Source: Methanosalsum natronophilum (GTDB lineage: Archaea > Halobacteriota > Methanosarcinia > Methanosarcinales > Methanosarcinaceae). Taken from it: 64,000 nt of DNA. Below the pieces are notes generated by a model. It worked only from the letters and a program-made list of their open reading frames with translations. It searched no databases and had not been told where the DNA came from. The first letter of the stretch is position 1. Each line of letters starts with the position of its first letter. The position numbers and the translations under genes were made by a program. The stretch is taken from positions 62,001-126,000 of the forward strand of contig NZ_JANUCS010000002.1 of assembly GCF_024808815.1 (NCBI RefSeq). Direction: 5' to 3'. Shown piece by piece: positions 32,569 through 42,632 of the stretch.

Positions 32569-33252
32569 GTGACCCCGATAATACCAGAACATGAAAGGTC
32601 AGATGAACCTTTAGATACAGAACAAATTATTTATCATCCAGACATGAAAAAAGCAAACGACTGGATTTTAAATGAATACGAACCGCCACACAGAGATTAT
32701 TGTATATTCGTACCTTGTTCTAAAAAGAAACCATATCATACAAGCCCATCTCACAAGATGTATGATAGAATAATCTTTGAAATACTTAATCCATCCGATG
32801 TTCATATAGTAACTTTTGGAACATGTGGAGTTACACCTAGAGAACTAGACACAGAATATCCTTTCACAGACTACAAGTTCATGATGGGACGATGTAATGT
32901 AGCTAAAATTAAAAGGGATTTTATAAAGATGGAAAGTGAAAGGTTAGCAACCTATCTAGATAAAACAAGGTCAAATTACAAGTATCGAGTAGCATATTGT
33001 CTTGGTGATTTCAGAAAAGCTATGGACATAGCAGTAAAAAAGGTTGATATTGATGTTGATATATGTCCAGATGAAAAAACTCTTGAACAGAACATTCAAC
33101 CTGACAAAAGCTTCATCTACGGAAGTCTGAGTAGAAGACCCTACTTACAGGACTTGGCAGATGTTTTAAGTAAACTCAGTGGTAAACCAAAAAGAAAGGT
33201 GGGCGTAGATGAAAATCATTCTATTAATGATACGGACTGGTACCTACTTTGA
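32569..33252 (+). CDS. free-standing ArcS-like (DUF5591) protein
   Basis: A 227-residue protein with the signature of archaeosine synthase ArcS, PC-X3-KPY-X2-S-X2-H, here PCSKKKPYHTSPSH at 49-62. ArcS moves lysine onto preQ0 in tRNA as part of archaeosine formation. Full ArcS proteins are much longer and carry a TGT-like domain and a C-terminal PUA domain; neither is present here, and the C-terminus ends soon after RRPYLQDLADVLSK. It may be the catalytic half of a split enzyme or a paralogue. It starts with GTG at 32569, with a GTGAT element about 9 nt upstream. Confidence 0.78.
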   Translation: MTPIIPEHERSDEPLDTEQIIYHPDMKKANDWILNEYEPPHRDYCIFVPCSKKKPYHTSPSHKMYDRIIFEILNPSDVHIVTFGTCGVTPRELDTEYPFTDYKFMMGRCNVAKIKRDFIKMESERLATYLDKTRSNYKYRVAYCLGDFRKAMDIAVKKVDIDVDICPDEKTLEQNIQPDKSFIYGSLSRRPYLQDLADVLSKLSGKPKRKVGVDENHSINDTDWYLL

Positions 33253-33639
33253 AAAATAAGCTATATTTAACTAATTTCTTTTTGTTTAGCACATTGAATT
33301 AAGAATTTAATGAAAAGCCCATTTCTTCGAATGAATCAGGGGGTGTGAAATACAACTCCTGTAGAAACTATAGCTAAAGTATTAGAAATTGAACAATTTG
33401 TTTCTATAATAAAGTAGGAAATTACTTCTTTTAATGGATGGTAGTTCATTACAAGAAAATCATACAGTTTTTAAACCTGGAAGCTAATCTAGTTATAATA
33501 ATCCCACCCAAGTTATCAGCAGATAAGCAATTATATACATTAATAAAGTTCTATAATATAAGTTAAAAGAATATTATTTATTCAAAGACTGCAATTGGTT
33601 ACAATTTTATTTGGGGGCCTTAGAATAAAAAATAGTGAA
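33253..33639. other. intergenic region before the glycogen cluster
   Basis: 387 nt with no supported gene. A 22-codon stretch ending in TAG (about 33351-33418) reads like protein (TPVETIAKVLEIEQFVSIIK) but has no start codon in frame, so it may be a decayed remnant or chance. The right end carries a TATA-like AATTATATACATT near 33530 for the GT4 gene. Confidence 0.45.
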
Positions 33640-34797
33640 ATGAAAATTGGTGTTTTCACATGGGAAAGTCTCTATTCAGTAAAGGTAGGCGGCATTGCAC
33701 CACATGTTACCGAACTTTCTGAATCTATTGCTAAAAAAGGTATTCAAGTACATATTTTCACCCGGAGTAGTGGTGAAACTAATGATCATGATATTATAAA
33801 CGGTGTACATTACCATAGAGTTTCGTTTGATCAGTCTGGAAGCATAATACACCAGATGGATAAAATGTGTGATGCAATGTATCACATGTACTTACAAGTT
33901 GTTCACGAGTTTGGCCAATTTGATATACTACATGGACATGATTGGCACCCTGTTAACGTTTTATGTCAAATCAAAGCTGAATTCAAGGTTCCTTTCATTC
34001 TCACATACCATAGTACAGAATGGGGACGCAACGGAAACAAACACGCTAGCTGGTGGGAAGCTACTGAGATATCACATCGTGAATGGTTAGGAGGTTATGA
34101 AGCCTCAGAAGTAATAATCACTTCCAATATTCTTAGAGATGAAGTACAATATCTTTATCAGATCCCGGATTACAAAATTTCAATTGTACCTAATGGAATA
34201 TATAAAGGAAAAATTAAGAGGGATATAGATCCTGGTAAAATAAAACAAAAATATGGAATTCATCCATTCACTCCAGTAATATTATTTATAGGACGTATGA
34301 GTTATCAAAAAGGTCCTGACCTTATGGTACAATCAATTCCCCATATCCTATCACATAGAGGAGACCCTGAGTTCGTTTTTATTGGTGAAGGTGAAATGAG
34401 AATGCCTTGTCAAAAACTAGCTAATGAGCTGGGAATTGGTCATAAATGTCATTTTTTGGGTTATGCACCAGATGAAACTGCAATCGAATGGAATAATGCC
34501 TGCGATATTGTCTGTGTACCCAGTAGGAACGAGCCTTTTGGGATAGTTGTATTAGAGGCTTGGGATGCAGCTAAAACTGTAGTAGCTACTGATGCCGTTA
34601 AGATCATTAAAGGATTCAAGAATGGAATATCAGTTTATAGGGACCCATACTCTATAGCATGGGGAATAAATTATGTACTTGATGGAAATGGATCAAATAA
34701 GCTAGGACTGGAAGGAAAAAGACTTGTTGAAACTATCTATAACTGGAACTCGATTTCAAGTTCAACTATAGATATCTATCAAAAATGTGTAAAATAA
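33640..34797 (+). CDS. GT4-type glycogen synthase-like glycosyltransferase
   Basis: A GT-B fold glycosyltransferase of 385 residues. The N-domain begins MKIGVFTWESLYSVKVGGIAPHVTEL with a glycine-rich loop for the nucleotide sugar, then ILHGHDWHPV and TYHSTEWGRNG. The C-domain has LFIGRMSYQKGPDLMVQS and the E-X7-E motif in SRNEPFGIVVLEAWD. First of seven same-strand genes, five of them glucan enzymes, so it probably elongates glycogen, by analogy with the archaeal glycogen synthase next to GH15 and GH57 genes in Methanocaldococcus. ATG 33640 gives the family start; 15 further codons upstream are in frame. Confidence 0.87.
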   Translation: MKIGVFTWESLYSVKVGGIAPHVTELSESIAKKGIQVHIFTRSSGETNDHDIINGVHYHRVSFDQSGSIIHQMDKMCDAMYHMYLQVVHEFGQFDILHGHDWHPVNVLCQIKAEFKVPFILTYHSTEWGRNGNKHASWWEATEISHREWLGGYEASEVIITSNILRDEVQYLYQIPDYKISIVPNGIYKGKIKRDIDPGKIKQKYGIHPFTPVILFIGRMSYQKGPDLMVQSIPHILSHRGDPEFVFIGEGEMRMPCQKLANELGIGHKCHFLGYAPDETAIEWNNACDIVCVPSRNEPFGIVVLEAWDAAKTVVATDAVKIIKGFKNGISVYRDPYSIAWGINYVLDGNGSNKLGLEGKRLVETIYNWNSISSSTIDIYQKCVK

Positions 34798-36846: not shown

Positions 36847-37059
36847 TTGATTGAAGATTATAGTATAGATATAGGATTGGCTGCAGGTATCATATACCAT
36901 GAACTAAGTAACAAGAAGATGAACTTATCAACCTTGGAAAAAAGCTTGCATGAGAAAGGATATAATACCACAACTGCACTAATGGCACTTGGTTGGCTTG
37001 CTAGAGAAGATAAGGTTCATATATGTAAATCTAACAAGTGGTCGATTTCTTTGAAATAA
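36847..37059 (+). CDS. small winged-helix protein (DUF2582-like)
   Basis: A 70-residue winged-helix domain: IDIGLAAGIIYHELSNKKMNLSTLEKSL, then a helix (NTTTALMALGWLAREDKV) and a short wing (HICKSNKWSISLK). It resembles the DUF2582 winged-helix family. DNA binding has not been shown for the family, to my knowledge. The start is TTG 36847, supported by GGGAGTGA 8 nt upstream. It sits between the debrancher and corA in the glycogen cluster and could regulate it, which is inference. Confidence 0.72.
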   Translation: MIEDYSIDIGLAAGIIYHELSNKKMNLSTLEKSLHEKGYNTTTALMALGWLAREDKVHICKSNKWSISLK

Positions 37060-37091
37060 TCATACTGTTTCTTTATCCTAGAAAAATAACT

Positions 37092-38138
37092 ATGAACCGA
37101 ACTTCCCAAAAATTAGGTTGTCCCCCAGGATCTCTTATCCATGTAGGAAACAAAATATCTGAAGATGTACAAATATCTTATATACATTATAATAAAGATC
37201 ACATTATAGAAAAAAGTGCAGATGATATAGAAGAATGTTTAGAACATATTAAAGAAAATACAATAACTTGGATCAACGTTTCGGGTATACATAATACTAA
37301 AATTATCGAGAAGATTGGACATGAACTTGGAATAAATAGCCTTACACTTGAAGATATATTACACACTCGACAAAGACCAAAGATTGAAGAATATGATAAC
37401 TACATCTATATAGTCTTAAAAAAAATATATCTTGTTAATGAAGAAATCAATTATGAACAACTTAGCTTAATTCTAGGCCAAAATTATGTCATCTCATTCC
37501 AGGAAAGTGAAACAGGTACGTTGAATCCCATTAAAAAGCGGTTACATAACAATAAGAGCAAAATTCGTGTTTCAACGACAGACTACTTAACCTATTCGTT
37601 AATAGATACGATCATAGATAATTATTTCATCTTTTTAGAGTTAATTGAGGATAGAATAGACAGTATAGAAGATGAACTCATTTCCAATCCAACCCATAAT
37701 GTCTTAAAAGAAATCCATGACCTCAAAAGAGAAATGACATTACTCTTAAAGTCTGTCTGGCCACTGCGGGATGTTATCAGTACAATGCTACGAACTGAAT
37801 CTATGCTAATTCACGATTCAACCAAGATATATTTCCATGACCTTTATGACCATACAATACAAGTGATCGATACAATTCAAACATTTAAGGAAATAGTAGC
37901 AAGTATGCTAGATGTCTATCTATCAAGCATAAGCAATAAAATGAACGAGATCATGAAAGTATTGACAATAATTGCAACTATATTCATTCCACTAACTTTT
38001 ATAGCGGGCATCTATGGTATGAACTTCGAATATATGCCAGAACTTGGATGGAAGTATGGTTATCCACTAGTCCTTTCAGTCATGTTACTTACTATTTTAG
38101 GGATGTTATCTTATTTCAAAATAAAAAAGTGGATATGA
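37092..38138 (+). CDS. corA: CorA-type magnesium/cobalt transporter
   Basis: Pentameric divalent-cation channel. The 348 residues contain a large soluble N-domain (TITWINVSGIHNTKIIEKIG, LEDILHTRQRPKIEEYDNYIYIVLK), a long helix, and two C-terminal transmembrane helices: one ending in the signature GMN (GIYGMNFEYMPEL) and a second (PLVLSVMLLTILGMLSYF) with a basic tail KIKKW. ATG 37092 is used; the reading frame extends 54 nt upstream only because the wHTH gene overlaps it. Its place inside a glycogen cluster is unusual. The metal could be Mg or Co; a cobamide operon lies 4.5 kb away. Confidence 0.92.
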   Translation: MNRTSQKLGCPPGSLIHVGNKISEDVQISYIHYNKDHIIEKSADDIEECLEHIKENTITWINVSGIHNTKIIEKIGHELGINSLTLEDILHTRQRPKIEEYDNYIYIVLKKIYLVNEEINYEQLSLILGQNYVISFQESETGTLNPIKKRLHNNKSKIRVSTTDYLTYSLIDTIIDNYFIFLELIEDRIDSIEDELISNPTHNVLKEIHDLKREMTLLLKSVWPLRDVISTMLRTESMLIHDSTKIYFHDLYDHTIQVIDTIQTFKEIVASMLDVYLSSISNKMNEIMKVLTIIATIFIPLTFIAGIYGMNFEYMPELGWKYGYPLVLSVMLLTILGMLSYFKIKKWI

Positions 38139-38213: not shown

Positions 38214-39332
38214 ATGAAAAGAGTTTGTATTTGTTGGGAACTTACCAGTCCATATAAATTAAAATGGTACTGGCCATCGGAGGGGTATAAGAAACCTAGT
38301 TTTGACATTTATTTCGAGTCAAACACAGATAATCACGATCTTGTTAACAATATTTTAAAATTGAATGAGATAATTAAAAATTCTATCAACTCCGGTGCTA
38401 AATATACTTTTAACATTTCTGGACCTTGCTTAGAACAAATCGTAGCTAATAAAGAACTACTTAAATCGTTCAAAGATATAACAAATACAAACTGTGTAGA
38501 GTTTACAGCATCACCTTACTATCAATCAGTTAGTTTTATGTTTCACGATAAGTCTGAGTTCATATCTCAGATAGAAAAACACGTTAATTTGATCAAAAAC
38601 ACATTTCATCAAAATCCTCAAACTCTTATAAACACACAGTTATTCATTTCCGATGAAATTACAAAATTAGGTGAAGAACTTGGTTTTAAGTGTATGATCG
38701 GTGAAGGATCTCATAACATTCTACAAAAAGATGATCCTACATACCTCTATAAGAACCACATACCTCTACTTCTTCGACACATTAATCTTAGTGAAGATAT
38801 TGAAAAAAGATTTACTAACCATACATGGTCAGGTTACCCTCTTATAGCAGACAAGTTCACTGCTTGGATCGATAGTATAGAGGGAGATATAATTACACTT
38901 TATTTAGATTACGATTCCATTATAAAACATTTAAATCAAAGTGACCTTATAATCAAATTCATTGAAGAATTACCAAAAAGTTTAGCTAAAGCTGGTATTG
39001 AAATGGTAAATCCTCTTGATGTAACTACACGTTGTAAGACATATCCACTCTCTGCACTCAAGAAAGAAATGACAGCTAGATATGGTGTGAACAGTCTTGT
39101 GGGCAATCATGTCCAGCATATATACATGCACGAGCTAGAACATACACTATATCAAATCAATAAAACCGATAATAAAGGATACCAAGATCTACACCGATGT
39201 TTTCAGCAGAATAGCATTTTTTTGGATATGAACTCAACAAATTATCCATTAGCATATGAGAATGCAGTAAACTTATTTTCTATATTCTCTGACTTTAAAA
39301 GAGGGTTGATCATAGGGGAGAAAGATAAATGA
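38214..39332 (+). CDS. GH57-fold protein lacking catalytic residues
   Basis: A 372-residue paralogue of the GH57 enzyme encoded next to it, with the same start pattern (CICWELTSPYKLKWYWP against CLYFEIHQPYRLKWFWP). The family's key residues are gone: motif 1 HQP is TSP at 11-13, the motif 2 His is Gln (YYQSV, Q104), the nucleophile Glu is Gln (INTQLFIS, Q142), and motif 4 DYETFGEH is DYDSIIKH at 232-239, keeping the Asp but losing GE. The W-containing motif 5 (TSWADIERDTSAW in the partner) is absent. It is not frameshifted and ends with an ATGA overlap onto the active gene, so a non-catalytic role such as glucan binding or complex formation is likely. Confidence 0.85.
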   Translation: MKRVCICWELTSPYKLKWYWPSEGYKKPSFDIYFESNTDNHDLVNNILKLNEIIKNSINSGAKYTFNISGPCLEQIVANKELLKSFKDITNTNCVEFTASPYYQSVSFMFHDKSEFISQIEKHVNLIKNTFHQNPQTLINTQLFISDEITKLGEELGFKCMIGEGSHNILQKDDPTYLYKNHIPLLLRHINLSEDIEKRFTNHTWSGYPLIADKFTAWIDSIEGDIITLYLDYDSIIKHLNQSDLIIKFIEELPKSLAKAGIEMVNPLDVTTRCKTYPLSALKKEMTARYGVNSLVGNHVQHIYMHELEHTLYQINKTDNKGYQDLHRCFQQNSIFLDMNSTNYPLAYENAVNLFSIFSDFKRGLIIGEKDK

Positions 39333-40591
39333 ACTCAATTTGCCTTTATTTTGAAATACATCAACCATATCGTTTAAAGTGGTTCTGGCCAGGTGATCAA
39401 ACTGAAGGGTTTGAAAGATATTTTGATAATAATGTAAATAAAGAAATATTTGAAAAAGTTGCCACGAAATGTTATATCCCTGCAAACAGATTACTTTTAG
39501 AACTTATAGATGAACATCGTAATGAGTTCAAGTTTAGTATATCTATCACAGGTACTTTACTAGACCAATGTGAGAAATGGGGACCAGAAGTACTAGATAC
39601 ATTTATACAACTAGCAGAATCTGGCTCTGTAGAATTTATAGATGAAACTAATTATCATTCAATATCAAGCCTTTTTGAAGATAGGAATGAGTTCATTGAA
39701 GAGGTTAAGCAACATCGAGATAATATATATTCTCAGTTCTCTATTCTACCAACCACATTTAGAAATACTGAACTGATCTATAACAACAGTATCGCAGAAA
39801 CTGTTTTTGATATGGGGTATAATTGTATTCTTGCAGAAGGTGCAGATCACATCATTAATTCGGCATCAAACCATATCCAGTCATTTCATACAAGAAATAT
39901 ATTTGAAGGTACTAATTTTTCACCGAATTACGTTTATAAATCCAATAATTGCGATATTAAAGTATTATTAAGAAACTATAAATTAAGTGATGATATTGGA
40001 TATAGATTCTCATCAAGTTCATGGCCCGAACATCCATTAACTGCAGAAAAATGGGCGAATTGGGCATCTAATGCCCAAGGTGATACTCTAAATATTTTCA
40101 TGGACTATGAGACATTTGGTGAGCATCAGTGGGCAGATACTGGTATTTTCGAGTTTCTCAAAGCATATCCCTATGAAATAAAAGACAATGGTCTAACTTT
40201 CAAAACTCCTAGTGAAACTATCAGGGACTACCAGCCTGTAGGCACAATAGATATTGGAGATTATTCTACCACCTCGTGGGCGGATATCGAACGCGATACA
40301 AGTGCTTGGATTGGTAATGATATGCAATTGCGTTGTTTCGAGGAAGCAAGACTTATTGAACCTTATGTTAAAAAAACAAGGGATCAGAACCTCATCCATA
40401 TCTGGAAACATTTTCTTACATCTGACCACTATTATTACATGTCAACTAAATGGCTGGATGATGCTGATGTACATTCCTATTTCAGTATCCATTCATCACC
40501 ATACGATGCATCAATTAATTTCATGAGCGCGTTCTTAGACTTCAAATCATTGGTTTTCAGAACACTTAAAGAGAAGAATCTTACCAATTAA
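39329..40591 (+). CDS. GH57 alpha-amylase-like glycoside hydrolase
   Basis: A retaining glucan hydrolase or transferase of family GH57, 420 residues. All five family motifs can be placed: HQP at 11-13, EFIDETNYHSI around 102-112, nucleophile E148 in FRNTELIY, acid/base D259 in MDYETFGEH, and TSWADIERDTSAWIGN near 315-330. It is predicted cytoplasmic, with no signal peptide. Known members are alpha-amylase, 4-alpha-glucanotransferase and branching enzyme; the short length favours the amylase-like group. It overlaps the degenerate paralogue upstream by 4 nt and precedes the GH15 glucoamylase by 16 nt. SD GGGGAG precedes the ATG. Confidence 0.9.
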   Translation: MNSICLYFEIHQPYRLKWFWPGDQTEGFERYFDNNVNKEIFEKVATKCYIPANRLLLELIDEHRNEFKFSISITGTLLDQCEKWGPEVLDTFIQLAESGSVEFIDETNYHSISSLFEDRNEFIEEVKQHRDNIYSQFSILPTTFRNTELIYNNSIAETVFDMGYNCILAEGADHIINSASNHIQSFHTRNIFEGTNFSPNYVYKSNNCDIKVLLRNYKLSDDIGYRFSSSSWPEHPLTAEKWANWASNAQGDTLNIFMDYETFGEHQWADTGIFEFLKAYPYEIKDNGLTFKTPSETIRDYQPVGTIDIGDYSTTSWADIERDTSAWIGNDMQLRCFEEARLIEPYVKKTRDQNLIHIWKHFLTSDHYYYMSTKWLDDADVHSYFSIHSSPYDASINFMSAFLDFKSLVFRTLKEKNLTN

Positions 40592-40607: not shown

Positions 40608-42632
40608 ATGGTCACATTAACAAACGCAATCCTTGGTAATCCTAACATCTTAGTAACCATGGGTCAAAAAGCAGAGATCAATGGAATATTCTATCCACAA
40701 AGAGATCATGCACAGAATGTAGATGAATCCCTTTTATGTTTTTATTCCGAAGAATTTGTTAATATAAATAAGGAGAAAGGGTCTGAGTACCTTTTATGGC
40801 TTGATGATGATAGTTGGAGACATGACCAAAAATATGTGAATGATACATATACAGTTACAACGCATCTTAGCCACGAATGTGGACTCAATGTAACAATAAT
40901 AGATACAGTACACCCATATCTACCTACGATCATTAGAAGGTTCAATATATCTAGCACACATGATTTTGACTTCCAGGTATTCTATTATTCCAGCTTCAAT
41001 GCAGGTGATTCAAGGAAACAAAATACATGTTATGTTGATGCTGATAGTAAGACTGTCATTCAATACTGGAAAAATTATCATGTCGGACTAAGCACAATAC
41101 CCGAATTCGAAAGTTGGCAAGTTAGTAAATTAGCTGGGAACAGTTGGTGGAATAACCCACAATATGATATGCAAGATGGACACCTTCAGAACAACCGTGA
41201 AGATATTGGAGACCTTGGTTTTGTAGTTGGTTGGAACCGTGCGATTAATAAAAATAAGCGTTTCGAGCTTACAGTATACATAGGACTCAATAATAATAAA
41301 AAAAACCTGTATAAAATGATGCGAGGTTTGATCACAGATTCACTTAACATGATCTCAGAAACCGTTGAATCTAACTGTGAAACTAAATTAGCTACTAAAA
41401 AACCACTTAAATCAGTTCCTCTTCTCCAGAAAATACACGATATTGACCTGATAACCATATATAACAGGTCCTTATTGACACTTGATCTTCTTTATGAGCC
41501 AACTAAAGGTTCTTTTATTGCATCCCCTGAATTCGACCCCGATTTTGAGATGAGCGGGGGGTACGGCTTTTGTTGGAACCGTGATTCTGTAGATATGGCT
41601 CAATCATTACTTAATGCTGGTTATCCAGAATATGCAAACGAATTCATTAACTGGTGTATTACCACTCAATTACCTGAAGGTTCCTGGTTCCAAAGATATT
41701 GGACCGATGGAAAACATGCTCCTTCATGGAGCAATTTCAGGGATACCACACAAATAGATGAAACTGCATGTACCTTATTCCTGATAGGTAGCTATTATTC
41801 GACACTTACAGGTATTGATCGTACAGAATTTCTTGACCGTATCTGGATAACTGTATTAAGGGGTGCAGAATATCTAATCAAAAGAAGTAAAGACCATTTA
41901 CATGAACTCTGCATGGACCTCTGGGAAACTCATGTTGGTACCTTTACATACACTAATACTTCCATCTATTCAGGACTAATGTTCTCATCACAAATCGCAA
42001 GGGATCATGATCAACATGAGCTTGCTGCTAGATGGGAAGATCATGCACTACAGATAAAAAGGAGGGTATTATCACACCTCTGGTTAAAAGATAAACAGTT
42101 TTTTGCAAGATGTTTTGATGAGAATGGTAACATCGACAACACTGTAGATGCAAGCATTCTTGGTACAATTACACCATTTGCTCTTTTATCATTATCCAAC
42201 AATGATGAATGGGAAAAAGCTTGCTCTATCATAGAAACAATTGAACATAAGCTAAGTTTAGATATTAATGGTTATCACGGTATCAAACGTTACGAGAAAG
42301 ATAAATACATCAATGGAAATCCATGGACAGTAACTACACTGTGGCTTGCAAAATCTATGTTGATCTTAGCTAAATCAATTGAAGATAATAAAGAATGCAC
42401 TGAAACTAAACATAGTTTAGTTAGCAAAGCACTTAAACTTATACAATGGTGTATTAGAGGAACAAATACTACTAATCTATTACCAGAACAAGTTGACCAA
42501 GATAAAGGAACTCCTGCATGGGCAATACCCCTTGGATGGAGCTGTGCTTTAATGATAGATACAATACTTTTACTTGATGAACTATTATGTCATGATAAAG
42601 AGCTGGTACACAAGCTAGAAACGCTTTACTGA
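40608..42632 (+). CDS. GH15 glucoamylase-type hydrolase
   Basis: Inverting exo-hydrolase releasing glucose from alpha-1,4-glucan. The 674 residues have an N-terminal super-beta-sandwich (about 1-270; ILVTMGQKAEINGIFYPQRDHAQ) and a C-terminal (alpha/alpha)6 barrel with GYGFCWNRDSVDMAQSLLNAGY, FQRYWTDGKHAP, TQIDETACTLF, the general-acid region MDLWETHVGTFTYTN, and the base in LLPEQVDQDKGTPAW. This is the common archaeal/bacterial glucoamylase plan and lacks a signal peptide, so it acts in the cytoplasm on stored glycogen. A GGAG precedes the ATG. The 3' end overlaps the convergent cobY stop by 7 nt. Confidence 0.93.
   Translation: MVTLTNAILGNPNILVTMGQKAEINGIFYPQRDHAQNVDESLLCFYSEEFVNINKEKGSEYLLWLDDDSWRHDQKYVNDTYTVTTHLSHECGLNVTIIDTVHPYLPTIIRRFNISSTHDFDFQVFYYSSFNAGDSRKQNTCYVDADSKTVIQYWKNYHVGLSTIPEFESWQVSKLAGNSWWNNPQYDMQDGHLQNNREDIGDLGFVVGWNRAINKNKRFELTVYIGLNNNKKNLYKMMRGLITDSLNMISETVESNCETKLATKKPLKSVPLLQKIHDIDLITIYNRSLLTLDLLYEPTKGSFIASPEFDPDFEMSGGYGFCWNRDSVDMAQSLLNAGYPEYANEFINWCITTQLPEGSWFQRYWTDGKHAPSWSNFRDTTQIDETACTLFLIGSYYSTLTGIDRTEFLDRIWITVLRGAEYLIKRSKDHLHELCMDLWETHVGTFTYTNTSIYSGLMFSSQIARDHDQHELAARWEDHALQIKRRVLSHLWLKDKQFFARCFDENGNIDNTVDASILGTITPFALLSLSNNDEWEKACSIIETIEHKLSLDINGYHGIKRYEKDKYINGNPWTVTTLWLAKSMLILAKSIEDNKECTETKHSLVSKALKLIQWCIRGTNTTNLLPEQVDQDKGTPAWAIPLGWSCALMIDTILLLDELLCHDKELVHKLETLY

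Follow-up and report, generated by a model that had tools for sequence, protein, structure and literature searches.

GH57 homologues that lie near the alpha-amylase group and lack one or both catalytic residues have been described as alpha-amylase-like GH57 proteins; the accessible part of the source lists 126 of them (60 archaeal), defines the group by these residues alone and contains no mention of near-obligate pairing or gene overlap. The type GH57 alpha-amylase is that of Methanocaldococcus jannaschii, and to our knowledge just one GH57 alpha-amylase has been characterised, with the protein examined on its own. The plant isoamylases ISA1 and ISA2 form an enzyme/pseudoenzyme heteromer of alpha-glucan metabolism; they belong to GH13, their genes do not overlap, and the complex is proven.

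The locus described here lies in the window, the whole 64,000-nucleotide stretch of Methanosalsum natronophilum DNA that was analysed, and consists of two adjacent GH57 genes designated GH57p and GH57a. GH57p is like the alpha-amylase-like group in having one or both catalytic residues substituted (Q142/D232 in the window copy; 66 of 74 orthologues overall). Unlike in that definition by residues, some GH57p proteins have lost the W-motif and the CSR-5 signature but still carry both catalytic residues. GH57a is like the M. jannaschii enzyme in its CSR-3 position 12 Arg, CSR-4 position 23 Thr, CSR-5 end tyrosines and Glu/Asp pair. As a pair, GH57p and GH57a recall ISA1/ISA2, a catalytically dead paralogue apparently being kept beside an active partner in storage-glucan metabolism, but they are GH57 proteins, their genes overlap and their complex is putative. 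No account of GH57 pseudoenzymes or of the Methanosarcina GH57 pair was found in the open literature searched, with the 2011 defining paper outside it. Catalytically incomplete alpha-amylase-like GH57 proteins are thus already known, and it is the near-obligate coupled pair, its single origin, its depth and its distribution that look new.

Gene organization and protein features

Features of the pair are as follows (window positions).

38214..39332, + strand: GH57p, predicted GH57 pseudoenzyme, 372 aa (PF03065 match, motif alignment, AlphaFold model)
38637-38639, + strand: GH57p nucleophile position, Q142
38907-38909, + strand: GH57p acid/base Asp position, D232
39314..39320, + strand: AGGGGAG, Shine-Dalgarno-like, within the end of GH57p and 8 nt before the GH57a ATG (GGAG/GAGG-type site in 73/74 loci)
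39329..39332, + strand: ATGA, 4-nt overlap of GH57p stop and GH57a start (exactly 4 nt in 65/74 loci)
39329..40591, + strand: GH57a, predicted complete GH57 alpha-amylase-type enzyme, 420 aa (PF03065 match, motif alignment)
39770-39772, + strand: GH57a E148
40103-40105, + strand: GH57a D259

The initial annotation had described two adjacent GH57 paralogues overlapping by 4 nt, and the coordinates, open frame and ATGA all proved exact. Both proteins were assigned to GH57 by PF03065 (161 bits for GH57p and 273 bits for GH57a, against a cut-off of 21.2 bits), and no further GH57 gene was found in the whole genome (2.03 Mb, 98.9% complete). NCBIfam gave no family name to GH57p, and a PDB search by sequence returned no match for either protein. 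Promoter and terminator consensus matches were of bacterial type and did not exceed chance level.

The AlphaFold model of GH57p (pLDDT 86.9, pTM 0.87) had only GH57 structures among its 21 best PDB matches (TM-score by query length 0.53-0.69), and the predicted model and these structural matches place the protein in the GH57 (beta/alpha)7-barrel fold. In the model, Q142 follows strand 4 and D232 lies at the end of strand 7, where the catalytic pair is found in GH57 enzymes. Confidence was lower for the GH57a model (pLDDT 76.7, pTM 0.81), in which three loops near the catalytic motifs (262-266, 312-330 and 372-381) were poorly predicted; this may reflect a shallower, more uniform alignment, and was not counted as evidence for a partner.

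Catalytic motifs

Motifs were compared in an alignment of 148 sequences, comprising 74 GH57p and 74 GH57a. GH57a retains every catalytic motif, the W-motif and CSR-5 included, as had been claimed: H11, Q12, E148, D259, G264, E265, H266, W317 and W327 are present in 74/74. Under the fingerprint scheme (Arg or Glu at position 12, Glu 15, Asp 20, Thr 23, Tyr-Tyr 35-36), the alpha-amylase pattern was found in R145, E148, D259, T262 and Y370 (each 74/74) and Y369 (72/74), and by this fingerprint GH57a is a GH57 alpha-amylase of predicted activity.

A canonical GH57 enzyme has five CSRs with the catalytic Glu in CSR-3 and Asp in CSR-4, and GH57p does not have this set. The substitutions read earlier in the window copy are all borne out: the CSR-1 His is lost (Thr at the H11 column, with Ser at the Q12 column in addition), the CSR-2-region His is replaced by Gln (Q104), the nucleophile Glu is replaced by Gln (Q142), and the CSR-4 Asp (D232) is present with the following Gly and Glu gone. 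This GE is also missing from most GH57p copies. The earlier description of motif 5 as absent held in part. The W-motif (SWADxERDTSAW in the enzyme) is partly deleted, by five residues in all 74 copies, but CSR-5 can still be aligned in register, though it is unrecognisable (TSDHYYYM in the enzyme, QQNSIFLDM... in the window GH57p). At two further enzyme positions GH57p orthologues differ, E106 being replaced by Ser in 73 and R145 by Val or Ile in 68, and they have no HYY in CSR-5.

The catalytic residues themselves vary. The Gln nucleophile, which the initial annotation had emphasised, is real in the window copy but typical of the genus Methanosalsum only, where the window GH57p has Gln + Asp and two congeners have Gln + Asn; across the family the position is Glu in 68/74, Gln in 4 and Asp in 2. 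The acid/base position is Asp in 11/74, Asn in 37, Lys in 23, Arg in 2 and Ser in 1. Both residues are retained in 8/74 orthologues, which are of the Argoarchaeum/GoM-Arc1 type or from the genus that includes Methanomethylovorans, and at least one is missing in 66/74; a residual or different activity is therefore conceivable in those eight. On the GH57p tree (26-species subset) the Asp position changed at least five times and the Glu position at least twice. Judged from the alignment, the conserved old defect of GH57p is in the W-motif, CSR-5 and neighbouring substrate-side residues rather than in the nucleophile, and the catalytic residues appear to have been lost repeatedly later, as would be expected once selection on catalysis had gone. 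GH57p is thus a GH57 homologue and not a canonical GH57 enzyme, no orthologue (0/74) having a complete motif set. Part of the sugar-facing surface is retained in most copies (CSR-1 His in 70/74, CSR-2-region His in 61/74, and Arg, Lys and Trp residues in common with the enzyme).

Distribution and origin of the pair

Loci were read from Methanosarcinaceae, ANME-2 and GoM-Arc1/Argoarchaeum (74 loci). GH57p precedes GH57a in 74/74, a recurrence that argues against chance; in the loci without the 4-nt overlap, a distance of 2-5 nt separates the genes with the start codons adopted. In the Methanosarcina-group methanogens and their methane- and ethane-oxidising relatives, the GH57 gene is near-always preceded, and usually overlapped, by GH57p. 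Two apparent cases of the enzyme without GH57p (G001 and G111) were discarded, as both lie at contig edges with the end of GH57p visible, and GH57p without the enzyme was not seen among the loci read. Within the family, GH57 is present in 94/112 genomes; in the other 18 genomes a search for GH57p gave nothing either, except for one 4e-4 match (G002).

In contrast to the constant pairing in Methanosarcinales, GH57 singletons elsewhere are unpaired: enzyme-type GH57 without GH57p was found outside the clade of the pair, and in the loci read from elsewhere in the phylum, from DPANN, Bacteroidales and others, each GH57 protein stood alone, almost always with complete motifs. Three lone proteins with altered catalytic residues appear to be independent alpha-amylase-like cases with no paired enzyme in the stretch read, two with Asp replaced by Ala (Porphyromonas, L167:7980-9293; Akkermansiaceae, L179:7902-9194) and one with both residues altered (a Halobacteriota genome, L228:5587-7041).

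In an 89-row tree, GH57p formed one clade (support 100/100) and GH57a another (100/99), and the main splits of the two match. The Argoarchaeum/Ethanoperedens type diverges first in both; ANME-2 is next in GH57p and is poorly resolved relative to Methanosarcinaceae in GH57a. The GH57p clade, which has a single old origin, predates the divergence between Methanosarcinaceae on one side and ANME-2 and Argoarchaeum on the other. GH57p is probably derived from a GH57 alpha-amylase. A constraint joining the GH57p and GH57a clades was unrejected (p-AU 0.35) in a tree without other GH57 specificities; duplication within this lineage fits, and an older separation of the two is also possible.

Selection on GH57p

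The open frame claimed for the window GH57p was confirmed, and every full-length copy read is also open. Median dN/dS was 0.088 for GH57p and 0.063 for GH57a, with a maximum of 0.21, over 175 non-independent within-genus pairs (Nei-Gojobori, enzyme dS 0.03-1). Because dS between the window genome and its congeners is saturated, the window branch was judged by tree lengths. With a GH57p/GH57a root-to-tip ratio of 2.25 it is the highest of 20 lineages (range 1.29-2.25), five further lineages being at about 2.2, among them G070, G032, G096 and G006 at 2.22-2.23. A special relaxation of the window GH57p was rejected, as its ratio, though the highest, is level with several others.

GH57p has 66 near-invariant columns, and the window copy departs from seven of them, the most of any full-length copy. 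Near-invariant residues unlike the usual enzyme residue (H189, R289, Q331, Q332, S356, S359 and R363) indicate that GH57p is under constraints different from those on the enzyme. H11, W78 and F138, retained by nearly all orthologues, are missing from the window copy, so pocket binding may be weaker in this protein; several pocket residues are gone, and in the C-terminal helical region the residues specific to GH57p are retained.

Genomic neighbourhood and glycogen pathway

Four neighbouring genes bear on the context of the pair.

33595..34797, + strand: GT4/GT5-like glycosyltransferase, candidate glucan synthase, sole PF08323 match in the genome
34808..36796, + strand: GH133 amylo-alpha-1,6-glucosidase (archaeal debranching enzyme)
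37038..38138, + strand: CorA-type Mg2+ transporter, immediately upstream of GH57p
40608..42632, + strand: GH15 (oligosaccharide amylase/glucoamylase-like), 16 nt downstream of GH57a, in an operon-like unit with the pair

GH15 is encoded downstream of the pair in 35/39 loci, the window included, the four exceptions being of the Argoarchaeum/Ethanoperedens type; GH133 and GT4 genes are often near it in the neighbourhood loci read. CorA is probably outside the GH57 system. Its gene is directly upstream of the pair in Methanosalsum and one other genus (g11) only, and in a congener (G073, L241:10148-11754) genes for a DUF432 protein and an MscS channel separate CorA from GH57p, where the window has 75 bp.

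The window genome has GH15, GH133, phosphorylase and one GT4/GT5-like transferase; GH13 and GT3 were not found in it. In the same congener (L241:2589-5440), genes for a glycogen synthase of GT3 type (605 aa) and a GalT-like protein (334 aa) are inserted between the DUF5591 and GT4 genes, which adjoin in the window (33252-33595), with no GT3 or GalT-like gene found elsewhere in the window genome. The window strain thus seems to have lost the GT3 synthase yet retains the GH57 pair. A GH13 match was found in 31/112 family genomes, one of them without GH57, and GH13 is absent from 64/94 GH57-bearing genomes. Glycogen has been reported from Methanosarcina (PMC6355812). A 2024 review raises the question of whether the missing branching enzymes are GH57 amylases in archaea, and reports a low glycogen content for a GH57 mutant of Sulfolobus acidocaldarius (PMC11046441).

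Discussion

The earlier proposal that selection has kept a non-catalytic GH57 fold beside its enzyme agrees with the adjacency in 74/74 loci, dN/dS of about 0.09, the single origin and the lack of any complete motif set, and GH57p is almost certainly a conserved pseudoenzyme; the glucan-binding or regulatory subunit role suggested with that proposal is putative. The most probable role, favoured with some reserve, is that of a non-catalytic paralogous partner subunit of GH57a, the pair working on intracellular glycogen together with GH15 and GH133. For the pair we infer translational coupling, physical association, a glucan substrate and a regulatory or positioning role. Since the genes overlap, the two proteins are probably translated together. 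GH57a would supply the active site on alpha-1,4-glucan (glycogen), GH57p would position the substrate or stabilise or regulate GH57a, GH15 would finish the chains and GH133 would remove the branches.

Gene overlap and a constant order are compatible, too, with a mere need for equal dosage of the two proteins. GH57p might then act by itself on the glycogen particle, binding glucan or serving as a scaffold, and be translated along with GH57a for dosage only; the sugar-binding surface retained by most copies (Glu in 68/74 besides the two His positions and the Arg, Lys and Trp residues) is in its favour; we regard this as rather unlikely, given that no locus read has GH57p without the enzyme and that the window copy has lost pocket residues while keeping those of its own C-terminal helical region. 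Catalysis kept or gained by GH57p itself, such as transfer or cleavage of a different bond by the retained Glu with or without Asp, could be entertained for the eight orthologues with both residues, yet seems improbable where Asp has become Asn, Lys, Arg or Ser in 63/74 through at least five changes on the tree, Glu has also been lost in Methanosalsum, and the W-motif and CSR-5 signature are absent from all GH57p. Simple decay of a duplicate of GH57a would account for the lost catalytic residues and for a rate about 1.3-2.3 times that of the enzyme, but we give it very little credence: frames are open in all full-length copies, dN/dS is far below 1, GH57p has near-invariant columns of its own, and its clade predates the split of Methanosarcinaceae, ANME-2 and Argoarchaeum, so that decay is already contradicted at the level of the family. 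The initial annotation had proposed that an alignment of orthologues with dN/dS would expose a decaying copy by complete catalytic sets in close relatives and relaxed selection here; the sets found were 0/74 and the window copy has no disproportionate acceleration, and on dN/dS, clade structure and GH57p-specific constraint a decaying copy was rejected.

A further reading, which we consider unlikely, is that GH57p and GH57a together are an unrecognised glycogen-branching enzyme of Methanosarcinales. GH57p would hold the acceptor chain and so turn an amylase-type site towards alpha-1,6 branches. This would fit the window genome, which has no GH13 and no other GH57, and the family, in which about two thirds of GH57-bearing genomes are without GH13, yet Methanosarcina is reported to contain glycogen.

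The pair bears on how branched glycogen is made in archaea without GH13 or a classical GH57 branching enzyme. GH57p provides many independent substitutions that show how catalytic residues drift once a fold serves another job. If the Methanosarcinales enzyme works only with its dead paralogue, single-enzyme assays would overlook what it really does. Since the pair is old and compact and occurs in Methanosarcina, which is genetically tractable, this can be tested directly.
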